A DNA stretch of 41,234 nt from Clostridia bacterium (GTDB taxonomy: Bacteria; Bacillota; Clostridia; Oscillospirales; Acutalibacteraceae), in contig JAFWYB010000045.1 in NCBI GenBank assembly GCA_017517865.1, positions 1-41,234 on the forward strand. The letters run 5' to 3'. The first letter of the stretch is position 1. Each line of letters begins with the position of its first letter. Shown here piece by piece: positions 1,068-38,433 of the stretch. Position numbers and translations under genes: made by a program. A model generated the notes under the pieces. That model made no database searches. It was not told the DNA's origin and was given only the letters and a program-made list of their open reading frames with translations.

Positions 1068-1091
1068 TATGGCAGGATTTCTAAACTTTAA

Positions 1092-1124
1092 GGCAGTATT
1101 TTGAAATACTGTCTTTTATTTTTT
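1092..1124 (+). terminator. Rho-independent terminator after the AraC gene
   Basis: A 10-bp stem (GGCAGTATTT with AAATACTGTC, one G-T pair, TG loop) at 1092-1113 is followed by TTTTATTTTTT. A TATAAT at 1128-1133 right after it is a possible -10 for the next gene, though no good -35 is visible. Confidence 0.85.
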
Positions 1125-1168
1125 GAGTATAATCAGATTGATAGGTAAAATCTGAAAGGATTGATTTT

Positions 1169-2407: not shown

Positions 2408-2410
2408 ATT

Positions 2411-3049: not shown

Positions 3050-3053
3050 GTCT

Positions 3054-14577: not shown

Positions 14578-14589
14578 GGAGGGATTGAT

Positions 14590-15849: not shown

Positions 15850-16204
15850 ACTTGTATGCATAGTCTGTCCCAGAGGCTGCAGTCTCACAATTGAAGGTGA
15901 AGGCGAAGGCATAAGCGTCAGCGGTAATTTCTGTAAAAAAGGCAAGGACTTTGCCGTTTCCGAAATGACCGAGCCCAAGCGCACAATCTGCACCACCGTA
16001 AAAACCGCCTACCCCCAATGCCCCGTTCTTCCCGTAAAGGTTTCTGCCGATATACCCAAGGACAAAATATTTGAAGTAATGGCAGAAATAAACAAAATCA
16101 CGGTTAACAAGAAAATTGCAAGAGGCGATGCTGTAATTGAAAATGTTCTCGGTCTGAACGTTGATGTTATTGCAACAAGCTCTATGCTGCTGAAGCTTAA
16201 TTAA
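15842..16204 (+). CDS. DUF1667 iron-sulfur protein
   Basis: 120 aa. The N-terminal cluster motif is C6-x2-C9-x3-C13 with C31 (LVCIVCPRGCSL; GNFCKKG), resembling the [4Fe-4S] site of molybdopterin oxidoreductases without the rest of that enzyme. C-terminal part reads VLPVKVSADIPKDKIFEVM and INKITVNKKIARGDAVIENVLG, typical of the family. It begins inside the preceding gene, so the two products probably form one complex with the GlpA-like subunit, in electron transfer. The exact acceptor is unknown. Confidence 0.92.
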   Translation: MRELVCIVCPRGCSLTIEGEGEGISVSGNFCKKGKDFAVSEMTEPKRTICTTVKTAYPQCPVLPVKVSADIPKDKIFEVMAEINKITVNKKIARGDAVIENVLGLNVDVIATSSMLLKLN

Positions 16205-16222
16205 CGGGAAGGAGTGAGCTCT

Positions 16223-22667: not shown

Positions 22668-22677
22668 GAGGTAAGAT

Positions 22678-24126
22678 ATGAATTATTATGTTGGTATTGA
22701 CCTTGGTACTTCCTCAGTCAAAGCTCTGCTTTTAAGCGGTGACGGTGAGTCGGTTGCCTCGGTTACTAAGGAATATCCCCTGTATTTCCCTCATAACGGC
22801 TGGAGTGAGCAGAACCCCGGTGACTGGTACAATCAGACGGTCGCTTCGCTTAAAGAGCTTTTAAGCGGAATTGACGCAGAAAGTGTGCGCTCGTTCTCTT
22901 TTTCGGGGCAGATGCACGGCCTCGTTATGCTTGACAGTGAGGATAATGTTATACGCCCCGCGCTTTTATGGAATGACTCAAGAAGTCAGATGCAGACGGA
23001 TTTTCTTAATGAAGATAAGGATTTTCTTCTCGACAACACGGCTAACATTGCCTTTGCGGGCTTTACCCTTCCGAAGCTTCTTTGGGTAAAGGAAAACGAA
23101 CCGGACAATTATGCGAAAATCAGCAAAATTATGCTGCCGAAGGATTATGTTGCTTACAGGCTTTCAGGTTCCTTCTGCACAGATGTTTCAGACGCTTCGG
23201 GTACGCTTTATTTTGACGTTGAAAACCGTTGCTGGTCAAAGAACATTCTTGAAAAGTTCGGTATAGAGGAAGCGTGGTTACCCAAGGTGCTTGAAAGTGA
23301 TGAGTGTGCAGGTACGCTTAAAGCTGACCTTGCCGAAGCACTGGGCCTTAGCGAAGTTAAAATAATCATCGGTGCAGGGGATAATGCGGCTGCGGCTATC
23401 GGCACCGGTACGGTAAAAGACGGTGACTGCAATATTTCTCTCGGCACAAGCGGCACAATTTTCACCGTAAGTGATAAATTCAGCCTTGACAGAGAAAGTG
23501 CAATTCACTCCTTCTGCTCTGCAGGCCGTAACTATCATCAGATGGCCTGTATGCTTTCAGCTGCGGTATGCTGTAACTGGTGGGTAGAAAAGATTCTCCG
23601 TGACGGCTATGACGAGGTGCTTTCAAAGGAAGACAGACTCGGTGAAAACGAGGTTATGTTCCTGCCGTATCTTATGGGTGAGCGTTCACCTGTCAACGAC
23701 ACTCAGGTAAGAGGTATGTTTTACGGTATGAGTCTTGATACCGATAAGGATGATATGAGCCTTGCTGTTCTTGAGGGCGTTGCCTTCGCTCTGCGTCACA
23801 GTATTGATATTATCAGAAATATGGGCATCAATATTAAAAGGTCAAATATATGCGGTGGCGGCACAAAGAATAAGCTGTGGCTTAAAATTATATCAAATGT
23901 GCTCGGTATAGAGCTTCTCATTCCTGAAAGCCGTGAGGGTGCTTCTCTCGGTGCGGCGCTTCTTGCGGCAAAGGGTATAATGACTGCACATGAATATGAA
24001 GCTCTTGAAAGTAAGGTTTATAAAACAGCTGAAACCGTAAAGCCCGAAGACGGACTTACGGCAAAGTACGAAGAGAGATATCTTAAATGGAGAAAGCTAT
24101 ACCCTGCCGTCAGGGGTATAAATTAA
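22678..24126 (+). CDS. xylB: Xylulokinase
   Basis: 482 aa FGGY kinase that phosphorylates D-xylulose at O5. The N-terminal DLGTSSVKALL loop, QMHG at 78-81 (xylulokinase signature), LLWNDSR, the catalytic D235 in GAGDNAAAAIGTG, and ICGGGTKNKLW are present. AAGAGGTAAG precedes the ATG. It is directly downstream of xylA and followed after 12 bases by the anchored heparinase-like gene. Confidence 0.97.
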   Translation: MNYYVGIDLGTSSVKALLLSGDGESVASVTKEYPLYFPHNGWSEQNPGDWYNQTVASLKELLSGIDAESVRSFSFSGQMHGLVMLDSEDNVIRPALLWNDSRSQMQTDFLNEDKDFLLDNTANIAFAGFTLPKLLWVKENEPDNYAKISKIMLPKDYVAYRLSGSFCTDVSDASGTLYFDVENRCWSKNILEKFGIEEAWLPKVLESDECAGTLKADLAEALGLSEVKIIIGAGDNAAAAIGTGTVKDGDCNISLGTSGTIFTVSDKFSLDRESAIHSFCSAGRNYHQMACMLSAAVCCNWWVEKILRDGYDEVLSKEDRLGENEVMFLPYLMGERSPVNDTQVRGMFYGMSLDTDKDDMSLAVLEGVAFALRHSIDIIRNMGINIKRSNICGGGTKNKLWLKIISNVLGIELLIPESREGASLGAALLAAKGIMTAHEYEALESKVYKTAETVKPEDGLTAKYEERYLKWRKLYPAVRGIN

Positions 24127-24138
24127 GGCGGTGAAAAT

Positions 24139-26142
24139 ATGAAAAAAGGAAGAAAAGCCAAAAAAGCCAAAAAAGCGATACTCGGCATATTTATTTCCGT
24201 AGCACTTGTTATTGTTTTGGGTGCCTCTGATATTGTGCCGCATTTTGCCGTTATTCCCGATATGATAAGGGTTGGTATAGATTACATAAGCCTTGACAGA
24301 AATCCCGATTATCCCGATAAGAAGGAAATAGAAGAGGCTCTTAACGGGAATGCTGAGGTGAAGCACCCGTTTATCCTTGCCGACAGTGCTGATTTTGATA
24401 AGGTAAGAGAAGAATATGAAACGAAGAAGTTTACTGCTTATACCGAAAAGCTTCTTGAATACGTTCTTTCAAATGCAGATGCTCTTCTTGACACAGCAAT
24501 TTACCCACCTATGGACTATGTACTTGATGAAGAGGACAGCATACTTCCCATTTCCCGTGAGGTTATCTGCCGTATGGTTATTTTAGGCTATGCGTGGCAG
24601 ATTACAGGTGAAGAAAAATATGCGGAAAGAGCGAAGGCTGAGCTTGAAAAGGTATGCGGTTATGACGATTGGTGCACCTCTCATTTTCTTGCAACGGCTG
24701 AAATGGCACTTGCTGTTTCTATCGGCTATGACTGGCTTTACGATTACCTTGACGAGGATTTCAAGAGTCTTATGGAAGAAAAGGTGTGGGATTATGCTAT
24801 CAGTTCCGCTCTTGACGATAACCATTGGTTCACCTGGTCAAAGAATAACTGGAACAGCATATGCTACAGCGGTATAGGTATAGCCTGTATGACCTTTTTT
24901 AACGGTGATATTGACAGATCTGCAGAATTCCTTTCAATGTGTTACAAGAATATGCCTATAGCCTTCGAAAACTTTACCCCTGACGGCGTTTATGCCGAGG
25001 GTCCCGGCTACAGTCAATCGGGTATGGATGCTATTGTCAATTTTGTGGCAACAAGCAAAAATTTCTTCGGCACAGATTTCGGTATGAGTGAAATTGCAGG
25101 CTTTAAGGAGCTCGGCAAATTCCCGGTTTATATCACTACGCCTACAGGTGTGTTCAATTTCGGCGATAACAAGGCGAGAATGTGCTTTACTCCCTCTCTC
25201 CATTGGTACGCTGCGGAGTATGAATCACCTTTGCTTGCCTGCTATCAGATGAGTGACGAGCCGGGCGAATTTACTCCCGACACCTCTGAAAACACCGAAA
25301 GAAACGGTGGCGGCAAAAGCTATGCACTGTCTTCTCTTTGGTATAACAGAGCCTACACTCCCGAAAGTGCCGATTTTTCAGACGAAGGACTTTATCTTCA
25401 GCTTGATTCGGACGCAGGTCAGGATATGGTGCTTATGAGAAGCGCCTATCTGGATGAAAACGCTACCTTCGCAGGCATCAAGGGCGGATATAATTTCATC
25501 AACCACGGTGACCTTGATATAGGTACATTTGTCTTTGACTCAATGGGTGTTCGTTGGGCAGAGGAATTGGGCCCCGGTCCCTATGATGCACCGAATTATT
25601 TCCTCAACACTCCCGCGGGGGGCAGATGGAAGAACTATTCAAAGCGTGCCGAGGGACAGAACACACTTGTTATTAACCCCGATATGACCCTTGATGACCA
25701 ATATGTATTGGCAGAGGGTAAGTTTACCGATTGCGAAGAAACCGAAAACGGGGGATTTGCAACTCTTGATATGACAGATGCCTACCGTATGAACGGTGCT
25801 GGCAAGGTTACGAGAACTTTTGAACTTTACAACAGCAGAACATCTCTTAAAATAACCGACAACGTAAAATGCCTTATCAAGAGTGATATTTACTGGTTTA
25901 TGCATACCAAGGCAGATATAGAAATTTCCGAAGACGGTAAGACTGCAATTCTTACAATCGGTGACAGTGAGCTGAAGGCTGTCTCTCATTCCGACGGTAT
26001 ATTCTCTGTTATGAAGGCTGAAAGGCTTAAGGGTGAATGGGAGTGGGATGAGGAATATCCCGACATTCAGAAGCTGACAGTCAGGCTTGAAGATGTTAAA
26101 AATGCAGAAATCTGTATAACCTTAGAGCCGTTGGATAAATAA
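24139..26142 (+). CDS. Membrane-anchored heparinase II/III-like protein
   Basis: 667 aa. Very basic N terminus (12 Lys/Arg in the first 14) then a membrane helix at about 14-34 with no lipobox or obvious cleavage site, so a signal anchor facing outside. Residues about 60-370 look like the alpha/alpha toroid (WNSICYSGIG; GVYAEGPGYSQSGM). About 400-660 is the beta-sandwich half, with YNFINHGDLDIGTFVFD as the heparinase-type motif. Superfamily members are polysaccharide lyases acting on uronic acid polymers; the usual H-N-H-N-D motif is replaced by N-H-G-D, so activity is uncertain. It is the last gene of the xylAB transcript, linking it to pentose-containing glycans. Confidence 0.8.
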   Translation: MKKGRKAKKAKKAILGIFISVALVIVLGASDIVPHFAVIPDMIRVGIDYISLDRNPDYPDKKEIEEALNGNAEVKHPFILADSADFDKVREEYETKKFTAYTEKLLEYVLSNADALLDTAIYPPMDYVLDEEDSILPISREVICRMVILGYAWQITGEEKYAERAKAELEKVCGYDDWCTSHFLATAEMALAVSIGYDWLYDYLDEDFKSLMEEKVWDYAISSALDDNHWFTWSKNNWNSICYSGIGIACMTFFNGDIDRSAEFLSMCYKNMPIAFENFTPDGVYAEGPGYSQSGMDAIVNFVATSKNFFGTDFGMSEIAGFKELGKFPVYITTPTGVFNFGDNKARMCFTPSLHWYAAEYESPLLACYQMSDEPGEFTPDTSENTERNGGGKSYALSSLWYNRAYTPESADFSDEGLYLQLDSDAGQDMVLMRSAYLDENATFAGIKGGYNFINHGDLDIGTFVFDSMGVRWAEELGPGPYDAPNYFLNTPAGGRWKNYSKRAEGQNTLVINPDMTLDDQYVLAEGKFTDCEETENGGFATLDMTDAYRMNGAGKVTRTFELYNSRTSLKITDNVKCLIKSDIYWFMHTKADIEISEDGKTAILTIGDSELKAVSHSDGIFSVMKAERLKGEWEWDEEYPDIQKLTVRLEDVKNAEICITLEPLDK

Positions 26143-26265: not shown

Positions 26266-26394
26266 GCAGACTTAAATTCGCACTTTCATCTGTCTGCCCG
26301 AAAAGACAGAGCTGTAAAATCATCAGATTTTATAGGGTGAATCCTGACTGGCCGGCTGCTCAGAAGGGCTGCATTTTTTTTACAGCCCCATTTT
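26266..26394 (+). ncRNA. Structured intergenic segment with switching hairpins (possible small RNA)
   Basis: Three successive hairpins on the + strand: TCTGTCT 26289-26295 with AGACAGA 26304-26310; CTGTAAAATC 26312-26321 with GATTTTATAG 26326-26335; GGGCTG 26366-26371 with CAGCCC 26383-26388, then CATTTTATT. GCAGAC 26266-26271 can instead pair with GTCTGC 26292-26297, which excludes the first hairpin. No open frame. No promoter is obvious, so a 3'-UTR structure is as likely as a free RNA, on either strand. Confidence 0.35.
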
Positions 26395-28018
26395 ATTCGG
26401 TTATAATTTCAAAGGAAAGTTCGCTTACACCTTCCTTTAAAAGAAAATCATAACAGTAGACTGTTATATCATCAGCATTGTATTCGTGCGGAGTGTGTTT
26501 TTCTTCTTTGACCGAAAGAATGACTTTATCTAAAGGATAAAGCATTTTTGTTCTGCCGAAAACAAGAGCATCTTTTTTTATTTCTGCTTTTCTTAAGCTG
26601 ACAAATCTTTCTGTTATGCAGAGGTTATCACAGAAGCGGAATTTATCGGTAATTGTTATTCCGTTTTCTTTGATTTCGGCTTCTCTTAAAGCCGAGATAA
26701 GCTCTTTTTCACCGTAGGGCTTTGTTATATCACATACTGCCGTACCGTTCTCGCAGCTTAGTGAGGCGGTATATTCTTTTCCGCAAAGCTGACTCTTACC
26801 GTTTATAACGGGTACGCTGTGAGAAAATGAGGAATTACAGAAAATGCCGTATCTCTTTTTCTCGTCGAAATAATCTCCGGTATATCTTCCCGAGCCTAAA
26901 TCGCAGAAGACCTGACCGTCATTATCGGCATAGATAAAGGAGCCGAGATCGTTGTGGTTGTGGGGCTCACCGTTACTGCCGCCCTTGAAAGCAAAGGAAT
27001 AAATATCCTTGTTGACAATCAGCTGATTTGCCACGGGGGAATATGCGCCTTTATTTTTCAGAGAGGGGGTGATATCGTCAGAAGCTTCCCATATAACCGC
27101 TCTGTAACAGTTAATCCACTTTGTGTTTGTTGCGGCAAGATTATCATTAGTCATATTTCTGCAAGGAGATGTACCGGGAAGCTTTCCGTGAATATAATTC
27201 TGTAAAGCATAGTCGGCGGTGAATTTCATATCAGAATCGGAAAAGCTCAGACTTGCACCGCCTTTAAGGCGGCATTTTTCGCCGTAGGAAGCTATATTTT
27301 TTATTTTAGGGCAGTCAAAAAGGTCGCTTTTTCCTGCTGTGAATTTATAAAGCATATCGGCGAAGACACAGTAAGCCGTAAAGCCGTATTGCCAGTAGGA
27401 AGGGCCCTCAAAACAGAACCCGTCGTCGGTGAAGCCGCTTATGTAGCGCTCAAGAGTCTTCAGAATACGTTCTCTGAGCTTTAGAAATTCACCCGGAAAC
27501 AGATATAAAAGCGTTCCCCCGATATAGGAAGCGCAGACAGATGCCCAATTCATTTCACAGCTTTCCCACCAGAATGTATTTTGTATGTAGTTATCAAGAA
27601 GCCTTGATTTTATTTCTTTTCTGACTCTGTTATATGTTTCGGGTGTCATTTTATCCTTGAAAACCGTAGAGATTTCCGCCAAGGCAAAAGAGGTCTCCGC
27701 TACAAAAAGGTCGATAAAATTTTCACCGTGAATTATATGCGCCGGTAACATCCACGAGCACTCATCACATACAGCGGAAATCACTTTTTCCAGCTTGCTT
27801 ATATAACTGTCATCAAAAAGAGAAAGTATGGCTGTGGCGGAAAGGTAGTCACGCCTTTTGAAATAAAGCTTTTCAAAATCCTGTCGGTTGCCGCTTTTAA
27901 GAAACTTTTCTCTTTCGCTTAAGGGGAAATCCTTAAGGTCATCGTCACAGCTTTTCAGATAAAGCTCCTGGGCTAACTTAAACAGAACAGGATAGTCTGT
28001 TTTATTATAAATACTCAT
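26393..28018 (-). CDS. Heparinase II/III family protein
   Basis: 541 aa from ATG 28018, 4 bases after the upstream stop; a longer frame to 28108 overlaps that gene. No signal peptide, so cytoplasmic. The alpha/alpha toroid region is seen at about 40-290 (NWASVCASYIGG; GFCFEGPSYWQYGF) and the C-terminal beta region carries the family hallmark EPHNHNDLGSFIYAD near residue 350, followed by FCDLGSGRYTGDYF. It is a likely oligosaccharide lyase for uronic-acid-containing chains, though some members have other roles. Last gene of the minus operon; a distant paralogue of the anchored protein at 24139-26142. Confidence 0.88.
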   Translation of the reverse strand: MSIYNKTDYPVLFKLAQELYLKSCDDDLKDFPLSEREKFLKSGNRQDFEKLYFKRRDYLSATAILSLFDDSYISKLEKVISAVCDECSWMLPAHIIHGENFIDLFVAETSFALAEISTVFKDKMTPETYNRVRKEIKSRLLDNYIQNTFWWESCEMNWASVCASYIGGTLLYLFPGEFLKLRERILKTLERYISGFTDDGFCFEGPSYWQYGFTAYCVFADMLYKFTAGKSDLFDCPKIKNIASYGEKCRLKGGASLSFSDSDMKFTADYALQNYIHGKLPGTSPCRNMTNDNLAATNTKWINCYRAVIWEASDDITPSLKNKGAYSPVANQLIVNKDIYSFAFKGGSNGEPHNHNDLGSFIYADNDGQVFCDLGSGRYTGDYFDEKKRYGIFCNSSFSHSVPVINGKSQLCGKEYTASLSCENGTAVCDITKPYGEKELISALREAEIKENGITITDKFRFCDNLCITERFVSLRKAEIKKDALVFGRTKMLYPLDKVILSVKEEKHTPHEYNADDITVYCYDFLLKEGVSELSFEIITE

Positions 28019-28022
28019 AACA

Positions 28023-29063
28023 CTATTTTGAAAGCCAGTCAAAGGATTTTCTTCCGCAAACGGCGTGCTTACCGGGGAAAACATCAATATGAAGCTTATC
28101 CTCGGCATTCATAAGGGAATACACTTTTTTTATTTTGCTGTGCGCCTGCTCAGAGGCCTTTATGGGGAAGAGCTTATCCTTTTTGCCGGATTCGATAAAC
28201 AGCTCCTTAGGTGCCAGAGCAGAAGCAAAATCGTATATTTCACCCACCTCAAGAATGTGCGGAATGTAGTTATCGGGGCAGTGCCACATTGAAAGAATAC
28301 TGTCCTTGAATGTGTTGATATACCCGCAGATAACGGTTTTGTAAATGCTGTCATCAAGAAGCGAAGCATAAAGAGCTGTAAGCCCTCCTCCTGAAATGCC
28401 CATAAGCGAAACCTTGCTTTCGTCAACGGCTTCCATTCTTCTTAAAAGTTTTGCACAGGTAAGAGCCTGATAAACCCTTAGGGATGCGGTGGTAAGCCCG
28501 TAGGGGAGAAGATGACGGGAAAGCTCATCGCAGGAGCTTATGTAAAAGGGCTTCCATAAATCGTGTGATAGTCTTGCCTCACCGAAGCCGAAAAGCTCGG
28601 GAGCAATAACCGTGCAGCCTCTTTTTGCCATTTCTGCGGCAAAGTTATTCTGATAATTGTCGATATAGCTAAAATGCTTTTTGTTGCCGCTTTTTGAGAT
28701 GTTCAGTATCTGCCTTACACCGTAGCCGTGGCCGCAAAGAGCCACAACGCCGCCCGTTTTGCCTTGGACATTTTTCGGTTCAAGGATATAAACAAGGCTG
28801 TTTAATCCCTCAAGAATTTCCGCGGAATATTTTTTCAGTGTGTATTCGGGATAATCAAGCTCTTTGCCGACGGGGACAAGCTTTAATTCGGTTGCCATTG
28901 AGTTTAATTTTTCAAGTGAGAAAAGCTCTGCGGCCTTTTCTTTTATGCTCTGCCCGATTTCAAGAGCCTCCTCATAAGAGACTGCATTTTTATAAGGCTC
29001 TGCCTTTACCTTGCCGTAAAGACCTGACATAAATTTATCGGGTGAATAGGGACTGTTTTTCAT
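28023..29063 (-). CDS. Alpha/beta hydrolase (acetyl-xylan-esterase / dienelactone-hydrolase-like)
   Basis: 346 aa from ATG 29063, correctly spaced from GAGGTGA; a GTG at 29072 lies on that site. The oxyanion strand is VVALCGHGYG, the nucleophile elbow LMGISGGG, the acid in FIESGKKDKLFP, and the base in GKHAVCG, giving a full Ser-Asp-His triad. No signal peptide, so it acts on imported substrate. The family contains carbohydrate esterases; in this operon removal of acetyl or acyl groups from a glycoside or oligosaccharide is a reasonable inference. Gap of 10 bases from the GH3 gene. Confidence 0.85.
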   Translation of the reverse strand: MKNSPYSPDKFMSGLYGKVKAEPYKNAVSYEEALEIGQSIKEKAAELFSLEKLNSMATELKLVPVGKELDYPEYTLKKYSAEILEGLNSLVYILEPKNVQGKTGGVVALCGHGYGVRQILNISKSGNKKHFSYIDNYQNNFAAEMAKRGCTVIAPELFGFGEARLSHDLWKPFYISSCDELSRHLLPYGLTTASLRVYQALTCAKLLRRMEAVDESKVSLMGISGGGLTALYASLLDDSIYKTVICGYINTFKDSILSMWHCPDNYIPHILEVGEIYDFASALAPKELFIESGKKDKLFPIKASEQAHSKIKKVYSLMNAEDKLHIDVFPGKHAVCGRKSFDWLSK

Positions 29064-29073
29064 AGCACTCACC

Positions 29074-31146
29074 TCAGAAAACTATCTTACCGGCTACGGT
29101 TAGCTTTTTACTGTCTGCACCTACATAAACCGTGTAGCCTTCGTCAAGCTCCCAGCTGCCGCTTTCAGGGTTATAAAATCTGATATCATCAATAAGCACG
29201 TCAACCTCTGCAGAAACAGCTTCACCTGCCTTAACGCTTACACGCTTAAAGCCCTTGAGCACCTTAACGGGTCTGTCTTTTTCCGTGCTGTTACTGCCTA
29301 CATAAACCTGTATTACTTCATCACCGTCAACATCACCTCTGTTTGTTACATTAACGGCAATTTTGATTTTCTCTTCATCTTTTTCGCAGGATAAGCATTC
29401 AAGCTCAAAATCCGTATAAGAAAGGCCGAAACCGAAGGGGAAATGAGGCTCAATTCCCTTTTTATCAAAGAGGGTATAGCCGTGATAATAGCCGTACTCG
29501 ATGTTTTTATCCTTTGCACCAAGGTGCAGGAAGGGTGGATAGTGCTCTGCCTTTCCGGCTATAGTAAAGGGAAGCTTGCCCGCGGGAGTAACATCACCGC
29601 TGATGATGTCTGCAAGGGCATTACCGCCCTCAAGACCGCTGTAAAAAGACATAACAACGGAATCTGCAAGGTCAATCCAGTCCTTGATAACATAAGCACT
29701 GCCGCCCATAATGTTGACAATAAGCTTTTTGCCGAGGGTTGAAAGAGCTCTGATAAGTGTTACATCCTCTTCGGGAATTCTTAAATCTGCTCTGTCACCG
29801 CCGGAGCCCTTCGGCTTTTTCTTGACGTTGCCGAGGTTAACGAGAAACTCACCCTCCTGAAGCCAGTCACTGCCCACACATACCACAATGTAGTCGCAGT
29901 TAACAGCAGCTTTCATTGCTTCCTTACAGCTTGAGCCGCTGTAAACAGAAACATTTTCCTCGCCGAAACGGTTTTTGATACCTTCATAAGGTGTAACTGC
30001 ATAGGGGCTGAAAACATTACTGCTTCCGTGGTCACCCGTGTTACGCTTGTTTGCATATCTTCCCACTACGGCAATCTTTTTGCCCTCGGGAAGGGGAAGA
30101 GCTTTATTTTTATTCTTAAGAAGCACAATGCCCTTTGTTGCCGCTTCTCTTGCCAAAGCAATATGCTCCTTTGAAAGAATAACGGACTTATCCTGCTTTT
30201 TGTGCTTCGGAAGAGTAGAAATAAGTGCTCTTAAAATTCTTGCGGCTGATTTGTTTATGTCTTCTTCAGTTATCTCTCCTTTTTTAAGAAGACAGGAAAG
30301 TGTGGCATAACGGAAAAGATAGGGCATTTCCATATCCATACCGGCCTTAAGGCTTCTCTTTGCATCGTAAATACCGTAGAAGAAATCGGAAAGCGAAAAG
30401 CCGTCAAAGCCCCACTTGCCGTGAAGAATATCTGTAAGAAGCTCTTTGTTTTCGCAGGCATAGGTGCCGTTGACCTTATTGTAAGCACCCATTATTGACA
30501 TTGCGCCTGCATCAATACACTTTTTAAAATGAGGCAGATATACCTCGTGGAGAGTTCTTTCGTCAGCAATTGCGTTGGCTGAAAAACGAAGGTCCTCAAT
30601 GCTGTTGAGAGCGTAGTGCTTCGGACAGGCGATAATGCCGTTATCCTGCATAGCCCTTGTAAGAGCCGCCCCCATTCTGCCTAAAAGGCAGGGGTCCTCA
30701 CCGTAGGTTTCCTGAGCTCTGCCCCACATAGGGTTGCGCAGAAGATTTATACATACGCCCGCAAAAAGGTTAGCGTCAAGTGCCGACGCCTCTTCGGCAA
30801 AGACCTCACCGATGCGGTATTCAAGCTCATCGTCAAAGGAAGCGCCACGAAGCATAGAAACGGGGAAGCAGGTGCATTTACCCATAACGATACCGCGGGG
30901 ACCGTCGGTAAACATTACGGGCGGTATGCCTAATCTTTTGCAACCGCCTGCAGGATAAGCCTCACCGTTATAAAATCTGCCTTTTGTGAGAAAATTCTTT
31001 GCCGTAACACCGAGAGCGTGTCCCTGAAGAAGACGGATTTTCTCTCCCACGGTCATTTCCCTTAAAAGCAAATCTGACGCCTCGTAAAGCTTTTCTTTTG
31101 TAGGTTCATTTTTATAAAGCTCAAGTGCTTTTTCAAAAGTAAACAT
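29074..31146 (-). CDS. Glycoside hydrolase family 3 (beta-glucosidase / beta-xylosidase type)
   Basis: 690 aa, cytoplasmic (no signal). Domain order is the GH3 barrel (about 30-310), alpha/beta sandwich (about 330-530), then a fibronectin-III-like tail (about 580-690). Substrate-binding D81 in DGPRG, K176-H177 in KHYALN, and nucleophile D254 in SLSDFF are all visible. GH3 enzymes release beta-linked glucose, xylose or other sugars from non-reducing ends; the specificity is not readable. GAGGTG precedes the ATG. It lies in an operon with a GPH importer and opposite xylA/xylB, so beta-xyloside or beta-glucoside cleavage inside the cell fits. Confidence 0.95.
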   Translation of the reverse strand: MFTFEKALELYKNEPTKEKLYEASDLLLREMTVGEKIRLLQGHALGVTAKNFLTKGRFYNGEAYPAGGCKRLGIPPVMFTDGPRGIVMGKCTCFPVSMLRGASFDDELEYRIGEVFAEEASALDANLFAGVCINLLRNPMWGRAQETYGEDPCLLGRMGAALTRAMQDNGIIACPKHYALNSIEDLRFSANAIADERTLHEVYLPHFKKCIDAGAMSIMGAYNKVNGTYACENKELLTDILHGKWGFDGFSLSDFFYGIYDAKRSLKAGMDMEMPYLFRYATLSCLLKKGEITEEDINKSAARILRALISTLPKHKKQDKSVILSKEHIALAREAATKGIVLLKNKNKALPLPEGKKIAVVGRYANKRNTGDHGSSNVFSPYAVTPYEGIKNRFGEENVSVYSGSSCKEAMKAAVNCDYIVVCVGSDWLQEGEFLVNLGNVKKKPKGSGGDRADLRIPEEDVTLIRALSTLGKKLIVNIMGGSAYVIKDWIDLADSVVMSFYSGLEGGNALADIISGDVTPAGKLPFTIAGKAEHYPPFLHLGAKDKNIEYGYYHGYTLFDKKGIEPHFPFGFGLSYTDFELECLSCEKDEEKIKIAVNVTNRGDVDGDEVIQVYVGSNSTEKDRPVKVLKGFKRVSVKAGEAVSAEVDVLIDDIRFYNPESGSWELDEGYTVYVGADSKKLTVAGKIVF

Positions 31147-31157
31147 TATTCTTCACC

Positions 31158-31901
31158 TCAGTAGCTTTTCAGCCTTTCAATATCTTTATACAACTGCTTT
31201 TCACTGCTTCCCGAAACGAACTCAACCATAACAATTCCCTTAAAATCCTTTTCTCTGAATTTTTTAAGCAGAGTGTCAAGATAGTATTTGTCCTTTTTTC
31301 TGAAAAGCTGCTCTCTTTTTAAATCACGGTAAGAAACGTGAACGTTTTCCGTGAAATCATAGGTTCTGTCAATTCTGTCAAGGTCATATTCCATACGGAA
31401 ATATCTTGACTGAAAATAAGTCCGGAAATTGTCTTTTTTCAGTTCCTCTTTAAATTTCAGAATAGCATCGGTATTGTTGTTAAAGGTTTTGCCGTGGCAT
31501 TCGGGGCAGACAAGCAGACCGTATTTTTCTGCAACAGCGCACATCTTTTCTGTGTTTTCAAGAAGCGTCTCATATTCGGCCTCGCTTGTTTTTTCGCTGT
31601 CCTTTCTGCCGAGCCACACCCTTATTGAAGAAGCACCCATTTCTTTTGTGCATTCGCAGATGTCAATCCATTTGCTTTCACTGTAATCAGCACAGTTAAA
31701 GTAGCTGCCGTAGGAGCTGACCGTAATTCCCGCCTCGTCGCAGAGCATCTTTACCTTACGGGCGTCATCAACAGCTTTAACGTGAACGTCTGCGCCCCAT
31801 TCAATATAAGCAATACCTGCATTTTCAGCAATTCTGACTATTTCCTCTGCACTCTTTTTCCTGAAGGTTACACTGCAAAGACCAAGTTTAAAACAGCTCA
31901 T
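31158..31901 (-). CDS. Sugar phosphate isomerase/epimerase family TIM-barrel protein
   Basis: 247 aa of the xylose-isomerase-like / AP-endonuclease-2 barrel. N terminus FKLGLCSVTFRK, EWGADVH metal-side strand, IRVWLG, CPECHGKTF with metal-type Glu and His, and MVEFVSG at the end. Members isomerise or epimerise sugars, and related proteins cleave 3-keto-glycosides. Length and motifs do not decide which. AAGGTGAT precedes ATG; 11 bases from the symporter stop. In this operon it may act on the sugar freed or modified by the neighbouring enzymes. Confidence 0.85.
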   Translation of the reverse strand: MSCFKLGLCSVTFRKKSAEEIVRIAENAGIAYIEWGADVHVKAVDDARKVKMLCDEAGITVSSYGSYFNCADYSESKWIDICECTKEMGASSIRVWLGRKDSEKTSEAEYETLLENTEKMCAVAEKYGLLVCPECHGKTFNNNTDAILKFKEELKKDNFRTYFQSRYFRMEYDLDRIDRTYDFTENVHVSYRDLKREQLFRKKDKYYLDTLLKKFREKDFKGIVMVEFVSGSSEKQLYKDIERLKSY

Positions 31902-31912
31902 ATACTATCACC

Positions 31913-33523
31913 TTATGCCTTAACTGCTTGCGTAAGCTCGTTTTCCATAGCCTGCTCCTTCTGCTTCCTGTATTCGACAAGCTTTGCTTCAACGGCGTTT
32001 TCGTCAAATTTAAAGAAGAACATAGGTATAGCCTGAGCAATAAGAGCAATTGCACCCAAGGCTGTGAGCATAAAGAAAATTCCGTTGAGAAGGCCGGTGT
32101 AATTTATACCGTCGATAATATTTGCCTCTAAGGTTGATGAGATAAGAGGAATTCTTGCACCGTCGGTGATAGCCTCCATTTTTTCTGCATTGTAGCCGAG
32201 GTTGTCAATAATCTGAAGAACAACAACGTTGAACAGGGCTGCTGAAATTTTGTAAAGCAGACCCTTGAATGAATATACGGTAGCCTCGATTCTTTCGCCC
32301 GATTCCATTTCGATACTGTCTGTTACGTCGGCTATAATTGAGGTGAGAAGAACGACGCTCATACCGACGGGGAAGTTTGTAAAGAAACGGAGGAAAGCAT
32401 AAAGAATAAAGCCCGGAACAGTGTTATAGGGCACAACGTATATGCCTATTATGTAAACGACGATGTTTGCCAAAGCTCCGAGTAAGGACATCCATATCCA
32501 GAGCTGTTTTTTTGTAAGCTTCTTAAGAAGCGGCGGTACAACCAGCATTGAAAGCATATATGATATACCGCTCATAACCGAAAGAATGGTGGGGAGAATT
32601 GCTACCGCATCAATGTTGGGGTTTTTTCCTATGATGCCTTCAATAAAGCTGTTAATCTGATCCATGGGGAGAATACCGATGCAGTTCCAGCGTGCGAAAT
32701 ATGAAAGGAACATAGCACCGAGATTGATGATACCGCTGAAGAAAGCGGCAACGAGCAAGGCGAGAACTCTTTTGTCTTTCAGCATTCTCTTAAGGTTGGC
32801 TGACGACTTGGCTTTTTTAGGCGGGATGTAAACCTTTTCCCTGATGCCGAAGAAGGAGCCCATCATAATAGCAGCACCCATAAATGCGAAAATAGCAGCC
32901 GACCAGAAGTAGCCCATATCGGTCATATCCTTTTTACCGTTGCCTAACAGTCCTGCCATAGTCCAGATAAGAACGGAGGGAAGAATAGTGCCGAGTGAGC
33001 CTACTGTATTTGAAATCGAAACGGCTTTAACCCTTAAATCCTTCTGAGGAAAAACAAGGGGAGTAAGACTGTTTCGGGGAATTTCCATAGCTGTGTATGC
33101 GGTGATATAAACCATATACATAATGAGCATATAGATGAAATTACCTGCATTACCTAAATTGGTGCCGTCTGCAGTAATGATATTCCAGCTTTCGGGGAAT
33201 CTGACCGGCAAGAAAAGAAGTGCGGTAGTAATTGCAAACGGGATAGATATCCACAGAAGATAAGGTCTGCATTTGCCCCACTTTGTTCTGGTGCGCTCAA
33301 CAATCTGCCCCATAATGGGGTCGTTTACAGCGTCCCACACCTTTGTGCCTAAAAGTACGATTGATACGAGGCCCATGCTCAGCTTCAGAACGTCGGTCAT
33401 ATAAAAGTTGATTACCGTGTAAACTGTGCAGTCAATAAAGAAAAATCCGAGAGGTAAAAGTGAAAACGCAAGGATTTCCTTCCTCGTTGCATTTTTGATG
33501 TCTATTCTTCTGCTTCCGGTCAT
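31913..33523 (-). CDS. Glycoside-pentoside-hexuronide (GPH) cation symporter
   Basis: 536 aa membrane protein with about 12 helices. The GPH signature is clear in WDAVNDPIMGQIVERT followed by T-K-W-G-K-C-R-P-Y, together with MEIPRNSLTP and SGERIEATVYSF. The family brings in oligosaccharides, pentosides or glucuronides with Na+ or H+. As the only importer in the operon it defines the cluster's entry point, and the compound is probably a small glycoside. Confidence 0.95.
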   Translation of the reverse strand: MTGSRRIDIKNATRKEILAFSLLPLGFFFIDCTVYTVINFYMTDVLKLSMGLVSIVLLGTKVWDAVNDPIMGQIVERTRTKWGKCRPYLLWISIPFAITTALLFLPVRFPESWNIITADGTNLGNAGNFIYMLIMYMVYITAYTAMEIPRNSLTPLVFPQKDLRVKAVSISNTVGSLGTILPSVLIWTMAGLLGNGKKDMTDMGYFWSAAIFAFMGAAIMMGSFFGIREKVYIPPKKAKSSANLKRMLKDKRVLALLVAAFFSGIINLGAMFLSYFARWNCIGILPMDQINSFIEGIIGKNPNIDAVAILPTILSVMSGISYMLSMLVVPPLLKKLTKKQLWIWMSLLGALANIVVYIIGIYVVPYNTVPGFILYAFLRFFTNFPVGMSVVLLTSIIADVTDSIEMESGERIEATVYSFKGLLYKISAALFNVVVLQIIDNLGYNAEKMEAITDGARIPLISSTLEANIIDGINYTGLLNGIFFMLTALGAIALIAQAIPMFFFKFDENAVEAKLVEYRKQKEQAMENELTQAVKA

Positions 33524-33535
33524 GTGTCTTTCTCC

Positions 33536-35323
33536 TTACATATCGTTTTCGTTTATTTCGTTCAGGTATTGCTCAAAGGGCTTTTGCCCGTAAGGTACGG
33601 GTGAAACCTTTATGAATTCTGCCTTGCCGTCTTTTGTGACAGTAAGATAATCTCTGTAATAAGGCCTTTCTTCTGCCGTTTTGCCGTCTTTTATAAATAC
33701 CGCACCGCCGCGGCTGCCTGTTTCGGGGCATTCTGCTATTACAGCTTCAAGCAGCGCTTTCATACTGATGAGCATATCCTTGTCGCGGTAGTAGTCATAA
33801 AGGCTTTTATGCTTTTCAGGATAAGAAGCGACGGCTTCGTTTATTTTGCCCAAAAGAGCCGCACAGCCCTCATAATCTCTTCTGAAGGAAGCGACCCTGC
33901 TCATTTCGGCTTTGAAATGAGCATAGCTTATGCTTTCGTCAACGGTAAAATCAGCTTCGTCATTGCTGAAAGCATCAAAAGTTCTTTCGTCAGAAAAGCC
34001 GTCGGCTTTATCGGCTATATGTCTTGCACAGACAAGCCCGCTTACCTGGGTATCGTTAAGTGCAGAGCCACCCGGCCTTGATAAACCGAACGTGCCTGCT
34101 GCTTCTCCGATAACATAAAGGCCTTTGATATCACTTTCAAAGTTGCAGTCGGTATAAACGCCGCCGTTGTTATGCTGAGCACATACTGCAATACGAAGCA
34201 TATCCGTTTCAAGGCTGAGACCCTGACGCAGATAAACGTCAATGGCCTTGCTGTTAAGCTTTTTAAGCCTTTCAAAGGGTGTATCGGCCATACATCCGGT
34301 TGAATTTATGTAATCCTTTGCTTCATCACACAGATTTTCAAAGCTGAAATGAGCAGGATTTTTTCTGTAATCCAGATAAACTCTTCTGCCCTTATCGGTT
34401 TCGCTGTGTACGGCAAAATCTATCTGTGAGCTTCCCTTTGCTCTGCCGTAAGAGAAGGGCCACTGATAACCCTTAAGGAAAACGAAGCTGTAGGCCTCAT
34501 TTATATCTTTAAAATAATCACATAAAAATTCGTATTCGTTACCGTTTTTATCTATACTGACAAAACGGGGGATAACCTGCATAAAGCTTCCCGAAACATT
34601 CCAACGGAAATCCACCGAAGCCATACCGTATTGCCATTGGGTGAAATTACACATTCTTACTCCTGCCTCAAGCAATACGCCCGTCATACCGTGCTGTGAG
34701 GCGGGATAAACGGAATTCTCATAAATGCAGGCAGGGGCACCCGTGGCGCATATTACATTTTCGGCAAAAATGTTTTCGGTTTTGTCCGTCACGGTGTCCA
34801 GCACCTTCACACCGTAGGCCTTGCCGTTACGGGTAAGAATTTCTGTTACAAGCTTATTGTCAAAAAGAGGAGTTTTGTTTCTTTCAAGAACAACCCTTTC
34901 AAGCTTTTCCGTCATTATTTTTGATGTAAGGGGACCTACCGAGGTTGCCCTTACCGTATCGTCGTGATCGGTTTTGTATCCCGGGTAGCCGCCGTAGGAA
35001 TCTTTGGGGAAATTTACTCCGTATTCGCACAGACGAAGAAAGCAGTGCTGACTGTTTACGGCTTCAAGATACATCTTTTCTCCGTCACAGCAGCCGCCCG
35101 AAAACATATCGGATGCCATCTTGTAGGGGCTGTCGGAAGTAAAGCCGTCCATTGAAAGCTTATAATAAGTCTGCTTATCACTTCCCGTGTTTCTTGATGT
35201 GCCCGAAAGGCGGTTTTCCGTAACTATGGCAATATTATCTACGCCTTCTTTGTAAAGCCGGTCCGCACATCCGTAGGCCGCTGCACCGCTGCCGATTATA
35301 AGAGCCTTATATATTTTTCTCAT
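33536..35323 (-). CDS. FAD-dependent oxidoreductase, fumarate reductase / succinate dehydrogenase flavoprotein type
   Basis: 595 aa. N-terminal FAD fold ALIIGSGAAAYGCADRL; the family motifs CAQHNNGGVYTD and GEAAGTFGLSRPGGSALND lie at about 385-430; a C-terminal helical domain completes the usual layout. The start overlaps the SDR stop by 4 bases (ATGA). No SdhB/iron-sulfur partner or membrane anchor gene is present, so it is likely a soluble reductase or oxidase of a C-C bond rather than a respiratory enzyme. Related soluble members include tetrahydrodaidzein reductase and L-aspartate oxidase. Substrate unknown. Confidence 0.88.
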   Translation of the reverse strand: MRKIYKALIIGSGAAAYGCADRLYKEGVDNIAIVTENRLSGTSRNTGSDKQTYYKLSMDGFTSDSPYKMASDMFSGGCCDGEKMYLEAVNSQHCFLRLCEYGVNFPKDSYGGYPGYKTDHDDTVRATSVGPLTSKIMTEKLERVVLERNKTPLFDNKLVTEILTRNGKAYGVKVLDTVTDKTENIFAENVICATGAPACIYENSVYPASQHGMTGVLLEAGVRMCNFTQWQYGMASVDFRWNVSGSFMQVIPRFVSIDKNGNEYEFLCDYFKDINEAYSFVFLKGYQWPFSYGRAKGSSQIDFAVHSETDKGRRVYLDYRKNPAHFSFENLCDEAKDYINSTGCMADTPFERLKKLNSKAIDVYLRQGLSLETDMLRIAVCAQHNNGGVYTDCNFESDIKGLYVIGEAAGTFGLSRPGGSALNDTQVSGLVCARHIADKADGFSDERTFDAFSNDEADFTVDESISYAHFKAEMSRVASFRRDYEGCAALLGKINEAVASYPEKHKSLYDYYRDKDMLISMKALLEAVIAECPETGSRGGAVFIKDGKTAEERPYYRDYLTVTKDGKAEFIKVSPVPYGQKPFEQYLNEINENDM

Positions 35324-36057
35324 AAGCGCCTCACATTAAATCCGCCGTCACAGTCTATAACCGTTCCCGTGCAGAAATCAAAGTTGCCCTCTGCAACGGA
35401 AACAACACACCTTGCAACATCCTCGGGTCTGCCCATTCTGTTTATGGGGGTTATGCCCTCTGCTATAAGCTTTTCGTATTTTTCTTTGACCCCGGCTGTC
35501 ATATCCGTTTCGATTATGCCGGGCCTTATTTCAATTACACTTACACCGTACTCTGCAAGTCTTGCGGCAAAAAGCTTCGTTATCATTGAAATGCCTGCTT
35601 TTGAAATGCAGTATTCTCCACGGTTTACTGAGGCGGTATAAGCTGACACGGATGAGATGTTTACTATTCTTGATGCGTTGCTTTTAATCAGCAGGGGAGT
35701 AAGCTCCTGAGTTACGAAAAATGTACCCTTGAGATTTATGTCTGTAATATAATCGAAATCCTCGGGAGAGATTTCAAGTATATCCTTTCTTTCCTTCGGT
35801 GCCACACCTGCATTGTTTACAAGAAGGTCAAGCCTGCCGAAGCTTTCTTCCACGAACAAGGCGAGATTTTTGCGACCCTCTTCCTTTGAAATATCGCAGG
35901 GCACAAAAAGCACCCTTCCGTTATATGCTTTTTCAAGCTCTTTGGTTTCTTCGCCCTTGTTTCTTGCCGTAACAATAACGGTAAAGCCCTTTTTCAGCAG
36001 TGCTTCGGCAATTCCCTTGCCTATGCCTCTGCTGCCGCCGGTTACAACTGCAACCAT
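35320..36057 (-). CDS. Short-chain dehydrogenase/reductase (SDR)
   Basis: 245 aa from ATG 36057 (AAGGTG six bases upstream; a GTG at 36066 lies on that site). NAD(P) loop TGGSRGIGKGIA, NNAGVAP, catalytic Ser in ISSVSA and YCISK as the Y-x3-K motif, PGIIETDM after it. A classical SDR that interconverts a hydroxyl and a ketone. Tightly coupled to the flavoprotein downstream (overlap) and to the OYE-type gene upstream (10-base gap), so the three probably carry out consecutive redox steps on one compound. Confidence 0.95.
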   Translation of the reverse strand: MVAVVTGGSRGIGKGIAEALLKKGFTVIVTARNKGEETKELEKAYNGRVLFVPCDISKEEGRKNLALFVEESFGRLDLLVNNAGVAPKERKDILEISPEDFDYITDINLKGTFFVTQELTPLLIKSNASRIVNISSVSAYTASVNRGEYCISKAGISMITKLFAARLAEYGVSVIEIRPGIIETDMTAGVKEKYEKLIAEGITPINRMGRPEDVARCVVSVAEGNFDFCTGTVIDCDGGFNVRRL

Positions 36058-36067
36058 AAATTTCACC

Positions 36068-37291
36068 TTATTTCTTCATTACATATTTCTGATAGTAGGG
36101 CATATAGCATTCACTGTCTCTTATTACACAGCCCGAAACGGTACCTGCTCTCATAAGCTCTGAGCATTTGCTGCATTTGATACACACCTTGCTCTTGTCA
36201 AGTGCACCCGTTTCAAGATAATCCTTATAGAAGGTGGGGTAAGCAAAGGTCATTCTGCCGAAGCCCGCAAAATCACCTACACCTTCAGAAAGCAGCTTTT
36301 CCGCATACTCCGTTGCAGCTTCACCGGGATATGTAAGAGCCGAAACAACAAACTTCATATCGGGGAAGGCTGAGGTGATTTCCTTTGTTACGCCGTAAAC
36401 TCTCTTCATACCGATGCTGCCGTCCTCGGGAGCTTTGACAGCGTAGGGTCTGTTGGTGTGGGGAATGAGATAGGGGTTACCTATTGTGAGATTTACAAGC
36501 TCTATGCCTTTTTCCTTAAGCTTTGCAATTATCTGCTTTGTTTCTTTAAGGTCAATTTCTCCTTTTTCGTTTACACCGTAACCGTAGCCGTAGGGAAAGC
36601 AGTCGCAGGAATTGAGTCTGGTGGTGACGAAGGCCTTATCACCTACAGCCTCTTTGACTGCATCGATACAGTCGAAATAAAGCCTTGTTCTGTTTTCAAA
36701 TGAGCCGCCGTATCTGCCCTCACGGTTATATGCACTCAAAAATTCATTGAAAAGATAGCCGTGACAGCACTTTACGTCCATGCCGTCAAAGCCTGCTTCA
36801 AGGGCGAGCTTTGCAGCTTTTTTATACATAGCGGGAATTGTGTCAAGATATTCATCTGTGGCAATAACAAAGGGCTGCTCTTCCTTACCTTTCTCCCAAA
36901 GCTCGTTGCGGTAAGCAACTATAGGCTCGGGAGTGCCCTTTGGCTTACTGTATCTGCCGCTATGTGTAAGCTGAACTATAACAAGAGGCTCAAAGCCGTT
37001 AAGCTTTTCGGATTTTTTCTTGATTTCGGCAACGAGATTTCTGAAGCTTTCAAAGGTGCTTTCGTTTATATAAAGCTGCCGCGGATTAGCTCTGCCCTCG
37101 TTACATACGGCAGTTGCCTCAAACCATATAACTCCGGGTGCGCCTTCAACGAAACGGAGATATCTGCGTTTCGTCAGCTCGTCAATTGCACCGTCTGCGG
37201 TGCCGTCGCAACCTTCCATAGGTTGAAAAAGAACTCGGTTGCGGACTTCTTTGCCGTATATGTCGGTTTTATCTGAAAGAGAAATTTGCAT
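36068..37291 (-). CDS. NADH:flavin oxidoreductase, Old Yellow Enzyme family, with C-terminal Cys cluster
   Basis: 407 aa. The FMN barrel covers about 1-360: VLFQPMEGCDG, VIVQLTHSGR, HGYLFNEFLS, RYGGSFENR. It ends in C-x2-C-x2-C-x11-C (VCIKCSKCSEL...SGC), close to the [4Fe-4S] site of 2-enoate-reductase-type enzymes, which is usually C-x2-C-x3-C-x11-C. The large C-terminal FAD/NAD domain of BaiCD, 2-enoate reductase and daidzein reductase is missing, so it would need an external electron donor or bind NADH directly. First gene of the eight-gene minus operon. Confidence 0.9.
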   Translation of the reverse strand: MQISLSDKTDIYGKEVRNRVLFQPMEGCDGTADGAIDELTKRRYLRFVEGAPGVIWFEATAVCNEGRANPRQLYINESTFESFRNLVAEIKKKSEKLNGFEPLVIVQLTHSGRYSKPKGTPEPIVAYRNELWEKGKEEQPFVIATDEYLDTIPAMYKKAAKLALEAGFDGMDVKCCHGYLFNEFLSAYNREGRYGGSFENRTRLYFDCIDAVKEAVGDKAFVTTRLNSCDCFPYGYGYGVNEKGEIDLKETKQIIAKLKEKGIELVNLTIGNPYLIPHTNRPYAVKAPEDGSIGMKRVYGVTKEITSAFPDMKFVVSALTYPGEAATEYAEKLLSEGVGDFAGFGRMTFAYPTFYKDYLETGALDKSKVCIKCSKCSELMRAGTVSGCVIRDSECYMPYYQKYVMKK

Positions 37292-37321
37292 AACATCATT
37301 CCTTTTGCTGTTGTCTCGATT

Positions 37322-37372
37322 ATTTTACCATTTAGATGAAAAAAATACAATATTAAAATGAGATTTTGTATT
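37322..37372. promoter_or_regulatory. Promoter of the eight-gene minus operon with adjoining dyad
   Basis: Minus strand: TTGTAT (37350-37345), 17-base spacer, TAAAAT (37327-37322) with TGG extension. The -35 is one arm of a perfect dyad, AATACAA 37344-37350 and TTGTATT 37366-37372, whose other arm faces the divergent dehydrogenase gene. One regulator could govern both; none is encoded nearby. Confidence 0.65.
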
Positions 37373-37437
37373 GTTTATATAAATAAAATGTGATAAGCTT
37401 TACACATAATGAAAAAGTCAAAAAGGTTGGAAGAAAA

Positions 37438-38433
37438 ATGAAAATAGCGCTTTTCGGAACAAATCAGAGACAGTTTTCCAAGGTATACACCCCCGAGGTT
37501 TTAAAAAAGCTCGGTGAATACGGTGAGCTTTCGCCGAAAATAAATAAAAAGAATCTCAGTGAAAACAAGGCTTTTCTTTCAGAATGTGAAATTGCCTTTG
37601 CTACCTGGGGTATGCCGAAATTCACTAAGGAAGAAATAAAAGAATATATGCCGAAACTGAAAGCCGTGTTTTATTCGGCAGGTACGGTTCAGTATTTTGC
37701 AAGACCGTTTCTCGAAAGCGGAATAAAGGTTTTCAGCGCCTTTGCCGCCAATGCGGTTCCCGTTGCCGAATATACCTTTGCACAGATTACACTTGCATCA
37801 AAGGGTTATTTTCAGTCGGCAAAATGTTACCGTACACTTCTGCCCCGTTCATTTGCTTTTGCAAATTCATCACCGGGTAATTTCAAATGCAAGGTCGGTC
37901 TTGTGGGCCTTGGAGCTATCGGTCAGGCTGTTGCAAAAAAGCTAAGGTCGCTTGATGTTGAGGTTTATGCCTACGACCTTTTTGTCAGTCAGGAAAAGGC
38001 AGATGAATTTGGCGTGAAGCTTATCGGGTTAGAGGAGCTTTTCAGCACCTGTGATGTTATCAGTAATCATCTTGCAAATAAGCCTGAACTTAAAAACGTA
38101 TTTAACCGTAAGCTTTTCAGCAAAATGAAAAAGCACTCCACCTTTATAAATACAGGCAGAGGGGCACAGGTTTCAGAATATTCACTCGCTTTAACGCTGA
38201 TTATGCATCCGTCAATAACCTTCGTTGCAGACGTTATTAAGAATGAATATTTCCCATATATCAATCCTCTTTTCTGGTGTCCTAATGCTATACTTACTCC
38301 TCATATTGCAGGCAGTACGGGTAATGAACCCCAGAGAATGGCTTATTATATGACGGAAGAGCTGGAACGCTTCATTAAAGGTGAGCAGACGGAATATGAA
38401 GTCACACTTGAGGCGTTGGAAAAAATGGCGTGA
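37438..38433 (+). CDS. D-2-hydroxyacid dehydrogenase family protein
   Basis: 331 aa from ATG 37438; the upstream ATG at 37390 has no ribosome site. NAD fold GLVGLGAIGQAVAKKL, the Arg of FINTGRGAQ, the acidic ADV...NEY segment and the His of LTPHIAGSTG give the full R-E-H catalytic set. Enzymes of this family reduce 2-keto acids or oxidise 2-hydroxy acids with NAD(P)H. Divergent from the glycoside/redox operon and sharing its control region, so it probably takes part in the same pathway, perhaps on an acid from the lyase branch (inference). Confidence 0.9.
   Translation: MKIALFGTNQRQFSKVYTPEVLKKLGEYGELSPKINKKNLSENKAFLSECEIAFATWGMPKFTKEEIKEYMPKLKAVFYSAGTVQYFARPFLESGIKVFSAFAANAVPVAEYTFAQITLASKGYFQSAKCYRTLLPRSFAFANSSPGNFKCKVGLVGLGAIGQAVAKKLRSLDVEVYAYDLFVSQEKADEFGVKLIGLEELFSTCDVISNHLANKPELKNVFNRKLFSKMKKHSTFINTGRGAQVSEYSLALTLIMHPSITFVADVIKNEYFPYINPLFWCPNAILTPHIAGSTGNEPQRMAYYMTEELERFIKGEQTEYEVTLEALEKMA

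Follow-up and report, generated by a model that had tools for sequence, protein, structure and literature searches.

The window, a 41,234-nucleotide contig from a Clostridia bacterium (contig C35 of host genome G000; 2.69 Mb, 95.6% complete), carries three adjoining redox genes encoding an old yellow enzyme-type protein (OYE), a short-chain dehydrogenase/reductase (SDR), and an FAD flavoprotein. This OYE–SDR–flavoprotein trio recurs as a conserved cassette, mainly in metagenome-assembled genomes (MAGs) of gut Clostridia. We tentatively propose, at somewhat less than an even chance, that it forms the core of a uronide-processing system in which the uronyl end left by polysaccharide lyases would undergo ketone formation, elimination, and ene-reduction in place of hydrolysis. 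The proposal draws on direct observations of gene order, correlated protein distances, a link to lyases, active-site residues, and canonical genes missing from the host.

Conservation and local form of the redox trio

An alignment scan with the flavoprotein over a one-genome-per-species set gave at least 573 confirmed places, of which the best 80 were kept. Their records are mostly MAGs titled Clostridia, Oscillospiraceae, or similar; mammalian herbivore gut (sheep, goat, deer, horse, yak, buffalo, cattle) is named in 37 of the 80 titles, two titles name spirochaetes, and two Defluviitaleaceae. With duplicates and loci lacking a flavoprotein open reading frame (ORF) excluded, 116 sources (the window plus L034–L148) yielded 102 nonredundant loci.

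Conservation of the trio order exceeds chance. Among the 86 nonredundant loci with at least 2.3 kb upstream, 73 show the succession OYE, SDR, flavoprotein on a single strand, with no more than 1.5 kb between neighboring genes; the SDR lies within 1.5 kb upstream of the flavoprotein in 88 of 94 loci. The order was recounted with tblastn over the 101 loci outside the window because the ORF caller had missed genes in GC-rich loci, where antisense ORFs were called. An earlier sequence-only reading of this DNA had staked its operon on the gene order recurring in relatives, and it does recur. Beyond the Clostridia, the trio is present in L114 and L140, records titled Spirochaetaceae and Spirochaetales.

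Protein distances of the other components correlate with those of the flavoprotein: r = 0.66 for the OYE (77 loci), 0.57 for the SDR (85), 0.77 for a TIM-barrel protein (46), 0.58 for a D-2-hydroxyacid dehydrogenase (HADH; 42), and 0.73 for a PL33-like lyase (13), with permutation p 0.001 for each. These correlations fit shared descent equally with shared function. Within host genus g1, two of six genomes (G000, G138, G003, G224, G289, G340) carry the trio, a patchiness that suggests loss or transfer.

Partner genes vary across the 88 loci of at least 8 kb (window included); the numbers given here derive from ORF clusters and are minimum values. The TIM barrel was found in 46 loci, the HADH in 42, an AraC-type regulator in 30, and a heparinase-type lyase in 26; GPH symporters (13), GH3 (12), and an alpha/beta hydrolase (12) are sparser, the last two occurring together in 10. 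GH3 and hydrolase genes are lineage-specific add-ons. On these counts, the window's "glycoside operon," as it was first described, is one local form of a wider cassette. Two further proteins recur: a PHP-domain protein (one member scanned) downstream in the trio operons of L060, L091, L098, L113, and L136, and a 537–564-aa protein of cluster c48 (one member scanned, no Pfam match) near the trio in L043, L081, and L144.

The local form consists of eight minus-strand genes running from 37291 down to 26393, with further genes on either side:

36068..37291, minus: first cassette gene, an OYE-type FMN/4Fe-4S protein that lacks an FAD/NAD domain (PF00724 Oxidored_FMN, 101.6 bits)
35320..36066, minus: second cassette gene, a PRK12745-family SDR (NF009386; Pfam adh_short_C2)
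33536..35323, minus: third cassette gene, an FAD protein that has the FrdA/NadB fold and an altered active site (Pfam FAD_binding_2)
31913..33523, minus: GPH/MFS_2-type cation symporter, accessory (PF13347 MFS_2, 180.1 bits)
31158..31901, minus: recurrent partner, an AsbF-like TIM barrel proposed to act as a keto-activated beta-eliminase (Pfam AP_endonuc_2)
29074..31146, minus: GH3 beta-glycosidase, accessory (PF00933/PF01915/PF14310)
28023..29072, minus: esterase-type alpha/beta hydrolase, accessory (PF12715 Abhydrolase_7, 32.6 bits)
26393..28018, minus: PL33-like lyase, predicted (PDB 8r73, E 2e-31)
37390..38433, plus: HADH, divergent, recurrent partner (PF02826, 127.9 bits)
24139..26142, plus: PL35-like lyase, convergent (PDB 9o3q, a PL35 chondroitinase, E 7.3e-57)
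21357..24126, plus: genes resembling, by eye on their translations, xylose isomerase and xylulokinase; located upstream of the PL35-like lyase

The eight-gene operon with its redox genes in tight succession, as originally described, is borne out: OYE and SDR lie 1 base apart, SDR and flavoprotein overlap by 4 bases, the gaps around the GPH, TIM-barrel, and GH3 genes are 11–12 bases, and GH3 and hydrolase are separated by 1 base. As called, the last ORF (26393–28108) overlaps the hydrolase; a start at the internal ATG at 28018 leaves a 4-base gap. The HADH gene (37390–38433) is divergent and therefore outside the operon's transcript. The symporter passes Pfam MFS_2 (180.1 bits, cut-off 27) and stays under the NCBIfam gph cut-off (TIGR00792; 179.9 of 231.35), and the hydrolase has a single weak PDB match.

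Genomic links to uronate metabolism

Gene content across two genome samples points to uronic acids. In 150 genomes of the host's family, 38 matched the OYE at E ≤ 1e-20; 34 were kept as trio genomes (the host plus 33 at 39–86% identity), and four at 30–37% identity (G119, G103, G135, G065) were left out of the counts. In a 364-genome sample, one of 72 flavoprotein matches was left out (G071, 31%), giving 71 trio genomes; the host is counted in both samples. Heparinase-type lyases occur in 22/34 trio genomes vs. 8/116 others in the first sample and in 40/71 vs. 17/293 in the second (p 9e-21). UxaC was found in 33/34 trio genomes vs. 53/116 others and KDPG aldolase in 31/34 vs. 52/116 (150 genomes; for KDPG aldolase, only the 83 matches, out of 85, that pass the cut-off were counted).

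The neighborhoods match this picture of acidic-glycan breakdown: at a good share of loci, polysaccharide lyases or uronate enzymes lie near the trio. A lyase gene sits inside the trio, in the order OYE–lyase–SDR–flavoprotein, in L056, L066, and L080. In L054 its neighbors are PL8 and a full heparinase II/III gene (cluster mates in L055); elsewhere the trio adjoins a weak PL22 match in L038 (25.1 bits, under the cut-off of 30), and GH30 in L091 (cluster mates in L113 and L136). A KDPG-aldolase/PfkB fusion lies beside the trio in L093 and a PfkB kinase in L064; GH43 (L095) and GH78 (L116) are further neighbors. Taken together, the surroundings of the trio indicate uronic acids rather than flavonoids or steroids, and uronides are supported as the substrate class.

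Two lyases flank or join the window's own cassette. The protein first called heparinase-like is a PL33-like lyase, predicted to be catalytically intact: its Hepar_II_III_C match is weak (20.7 bits, cut-off 24) and its PL33 match strong (E 2e-31). Passages of PMC11848413 discuss N238, Y291, H444, and Y470 as catalytic residues of BtPL33; counted along the printed alignment, these correspond to N187, Y238, H383, and Y409, and all four are at least 92% conserved in 18 cluster sequences (window and one duplicate contig included). Started at 28018, the protein shows no signal peptide by eye and looks cytosolic. The convergent PL35-like lyase aligns over residues 76–600 with 9o3q (E 7.3e-57) and, given a hydrophobic N-terminal segment seen by eye, is probably exported.

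These data also bear on an unlikely, though not negligible, alternative in which the substrate is a free modified uronic acid (e.g., a hexuronate that has been methylated or epimerised, or the corresponding keto acid) that arises downstream of ordinary hydrolysis and feeds UxaC and the 2-keto-3-deoxygluconate (KDG) route; the lyases would then supply chains, and unsaturated ends would not be the cassette's substrate. The near-universal UxaC and KDPG aldolase of trio genomes, the kinase and aldolase-fusion neighbors of L064 and L093, and the GH3, GH30, GH43, or GH78 genes at some loci all favor it. It leaves unexplained, however, the cytosolic-looking lyases with intact catalytic residues inside the trio at L056, L066, and L080, and the lyase co-occurrence in 40 of 71 trio genomes.

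The trio's OYE and flavoprotein depart from the enzymes to which they were first compared. The sequence-only reading had likened the trio to daidzein-to-equol and bile-acid systems, and had suggested uptake and deglycosylation of a glycoside followed by reduction of its nonsugar part or of an unusual sugar. The equol pathway does draw its daidzein, dihydrodaidzein, and tetrahydrodaidzein reductases from the same three superfamilies, with a long OYE that has an FAD/NAD domain. By analogy, GH3 would remove the sugar from a plant glycoside (flavonoid, lignan, or steroid), and OYE, SDR, and flavoprotein would reduce the aglycone; the nearest profile of the window's GH3 is indeed exo-alpha-L-arabinopyranosidase, though at 372.1 bits it falls well under the cut-off of 1300. 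GH3 was seen, however, in only 12 of 88 loci, and the trio's partners are lyases, UxaC, and KDPG aldolase. The OYE also misses three curated cut-offs by a wide margin, with 88.1 bits for BaiCD (cut-off 825), 83 for bilirubin reductase (750), and 108.7 for NamA (431). On these profile scores, the missing FAD/NAD domain, the flavoprotein's lost catalytic Arg, and the neighbor survey, we dropped the equol and bile-acid analogy and regard aglycone reduction as very unlikely. What stands of the earlier suggestion is sugar-conjugate uptake, breakdown, and redox steps on an unusual sugar, now in a uronate context.

Both OYE peculiarities noticed earlier, the absent FAD/NAD domain and a Cys spacing one residue shorter, were confirmed. 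The protein has 407 aa, its Pfam match spans 14–232, and the chain stops shortly after a Cys cluster of pattern C-x2-C-x2-C-x11-C, compared with C-x2-C-x3-C-x11-C in E. coli FadH. The four Cys and Lys174, which replaces the first His of the usual H-x-x-H, are invariant in 26 aligned sequences (window included). Two distant OYE relatives were also seen. In L048 (7381–10071; G103), uxaC lies directly upstream of an ordinary OYE at 36% identity, a second OYE–uronate link; in L047 (8560–11344), a short OYE at 30% identity with C-x2-C-x2-C adjoins an FGGY kinase that clusters with the window's XylB-like protein.

The flavoprotein matches the whole FrdA/NadB fold, C-terminal domain included, and its R416, the equivalent of NadB R386 (presumably the carboxylate Arg), is invariant among the aligned flavoproteins. 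At the position of NadB R290 and FrdA R287, which we take to be the catalytic Arg, it carries Ser298, invariant in 24 sequences (placed by alignment, not by superposed structure); the NadB His351 position holds Gln383, with His384 beside it. Fumarate-reductase chemistry was rejected for this protein on the Arg-to-Ser change. The SDR meets the curated PRK12745 model NF009386 (304.5 bits, cut-off 250) and falls under the kduD cut-off (151.8 of 338.85 bits).

A proposed route for unsaturated uronides

The canonical route, as set out in passages of PMC12838403, runs from lyase through GH88/GH105, KduI/DhuI, and KduD/DhuD to KDG. In the host genome, GH88/105 gave 0 matches, the KduI model PRK00924 gave none, and the best kduD score was 188.7 of 338.85 bits; DhuI was not searched for. 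Since the host shows neither GH88/105 nor, on the equivalog models tested, KduI or KduD, we propose that the cassette disposes of the unsaturated end. That the cassette is KduI/KduD itself was considered and rejected: the SDR is below the kduD cut-off, and the TIM barrel's sole Pfam match is AP_endonuc_2.

By sequence and by fold, the best relative of the TIM barrel is the 3-dehydroshikimate dehydratase AsbF. Five aligned active-center residues are identical (equivalents of AsbF Tyr70, Arg102, Glu142, His144, and His198), and E134, H136, and R94, corresponding to Glu142-x-His144 and Arg102, are invariant in 38 sequences. Judged by alignment, the protein retains the E-x-H pair typical of keto-activated beta-eliminases. 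AsbF His175 and Lys200 are not conserved. Among the other partners, HADH Arg257, Glu286, and His305 are conserved in 47 sequences.

This kinship could also be taken at face value, as degradation of a cyclitol acid of the quinate/shikimate type: SDR and FAD protein would oxidize quinate or shikimate, the AsbF-like protein would make protocatechuate, OYE and HADH would balance redox, and the hydrolase would free quinate from esters. The AsbF relationship and the five identical residues favor such a route, to which we give only a slim chance: AsbF Asp172 is replaced by Gln164, His175 and Lys200 are not kept, the TIM barrel was not seen in 42 of 88 loci, and the polysaccharide lyases and uronate genes are left unexplained.

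For the uronide reading, we infer the substrate, the cell location of the lyases, and in which order and direction each redox step runs. The exported PL35-like lyase (24139–26142) would cut a glucuronic-acid-containing chain, the GPH symporter would import the fragments, and the cytosolic PL33-like lyase would trim them to delta-4,5-unsaturated uronyl ends. A dehydrogenase (SDR or FAD protein) may then convert one of the ring hydroxyls to a ketone, with the allylic C3-OH as the likeliest site. The C3 ketone of a delta-4,5-unsaturated uronide would have a carboxylate-C=C-C=O system, its C2-H would be acidic, and C1 would bear a leaving group; such a ketone would be the ring-oxygen counterpart of 3-dehydroshikimate, the AsbF substrate. 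By keto-activated beta-elimination, the AsbF-like TIM barrel could release the substituent at C1, the OYE would reduce the resulting enone, and the HADH would reduce a 2-keto acid as the final step; GH3 and the hydrolase would process the remaining oligosaccharide.

Several observations weigh against this reading. TIM barrel (46/88 loci), HADH (42/88), and lyases (26/88) are none of them obligatory nearby; since the TIM cluster was not seen in 42 of 88 loci, the proposal needs an unlinked TIM barrel or a TIM-free version. Asp172 is a metal ligand in AsbF (PMC9324987), and its replacement Gln164 is invariant in the TIM cluster. UxaC, the strongest partner of the trio, belongs to ordinary hexuronate breakdown, and PL8, KDPG-aldolase, and rhamnosidase neighbors are limited to single or few loci. 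The broader KduI/IolB family PF04962 is commoner with the trio (18/34 vs. 31/116; 150 genomes) and matches the host once, over cut-off (C5:21033–21767, E 1.3e-48). GH88/105 shows no association with the trio in 150 genomes (9/34 vs. 29/116; E 1e-3) and a mild enrichment in 364 (21/71 vs. 34/293; E 1e-5), which weakens strict replacement of GH88 by the cassette. Among genomes with lyases, GH88/105 is present in 7/40 with the trio vs. 7/17 without it, leaving 33/40 and 10/17 lacking it, a difference that is not significant (p 0.09). The co-occurrence tests ignore the relatedness of genomes, and a Pfam tally of 79 mixed neighbor proteins (from 94 listed) found no dominant further family.

A bolder version of the uronide proposal, which we consider improbable, is a hydrolase-free clearing of lyase products. 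After oxidation of the C3-OH, the TIM barrel would expel the whole sugar partner to give a comenate-like hydroxy-4-pyrone carboxylate, or the dihydro form of that compound, and OYE and the altered NadB-like flavoprotein would reduce this product; the unsaturated uronate would then serve gut anaerobes as an electron sink.

If the cassette clears unsaturated uronides, lyase genomes without GH88/105 could complete acidic-glycan breakdown by another route, and two flavoenzymes and an AsbF-like protein would gain a function. Among the papers listed by searches of open-license PMC text, aimed at the trio with uronates or lyases and at neighboring topics, no description of the combination turned up. 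Each protein family is known; the combination is best seen as a variant of uronide catabolism and, less probably, as a new type of pathway.

Two further groups in the window were named by eye from translations. At 234–4046, a corrinoid protein occurs with an AraC-type regulator and methyltransferases resembling uroporphyrinogen decarboxylase, possibly a corrinoid-dependent demethylation group. One plus-strand run (12874–19539) holds a GlpA-like FAD protein, a further FAD/NAD-type oxidoreductase, an FGGY-type kinase, and an alkyl-DHAP synthase-like FAD oxidase.

Comparison with known systems

The canonical uronide route shares with the host genome lyases, an importer, an SDR, and KDPG aldolase and, if our reading is right, the substrate class. 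It differs in its GH88/105 and KduI steps, for which the host has no GH88/105 or PRK00924 match (PF04962 matches once; DhuI was not searched for); the cassette SDR is not KduD by cut-off, and two flavoproteins and an AsbF-like TIM barrel are added. Known PL33 and PL35 lyases resemble the window's enzymes in the PL33 catalytic residues and sequence and in the PL35 relationship (E 7.3e-57), whereas the window's PL33-like lyase looks cytosolic and shares an operon with redox genes.

With FrdA, SdhA, and NadB, the cassette flavoprotein has in common the whole fold and R416 for NadB R386; it differs in Ser298 for R290 and Gln383 for His351, and no FrdB-like gene lies in the window's operon. Likewise, the TIM barrel shares its fold and five active-center equivalents with AsbF-like 3-dehydroshikimate dehydratases but has Gln for Asp172, has lost His175 and Lys200, and stands in a glycan context. 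The equol pathway, alike in its three superfamilies, is set apart by the cassette's short OYE, altered flavoprotein site, and uronate and lyase neighbors.

A mechanistic parallel may be 3-keto-glycoside beta-elimination (OGE/CGE, DgpABC): passages of PMC10628242 describe flavonoid C- and O-glucosides as substrates and a CGE TIM barrel whose Glu-x-His carries the catalytic His. The cassette has the TIM barrel with Glu-x-His in common with these systems, and oxidation before elimination is the analogy we propose. To our knowledge, no OYE or NadB-like protein belongs to them.

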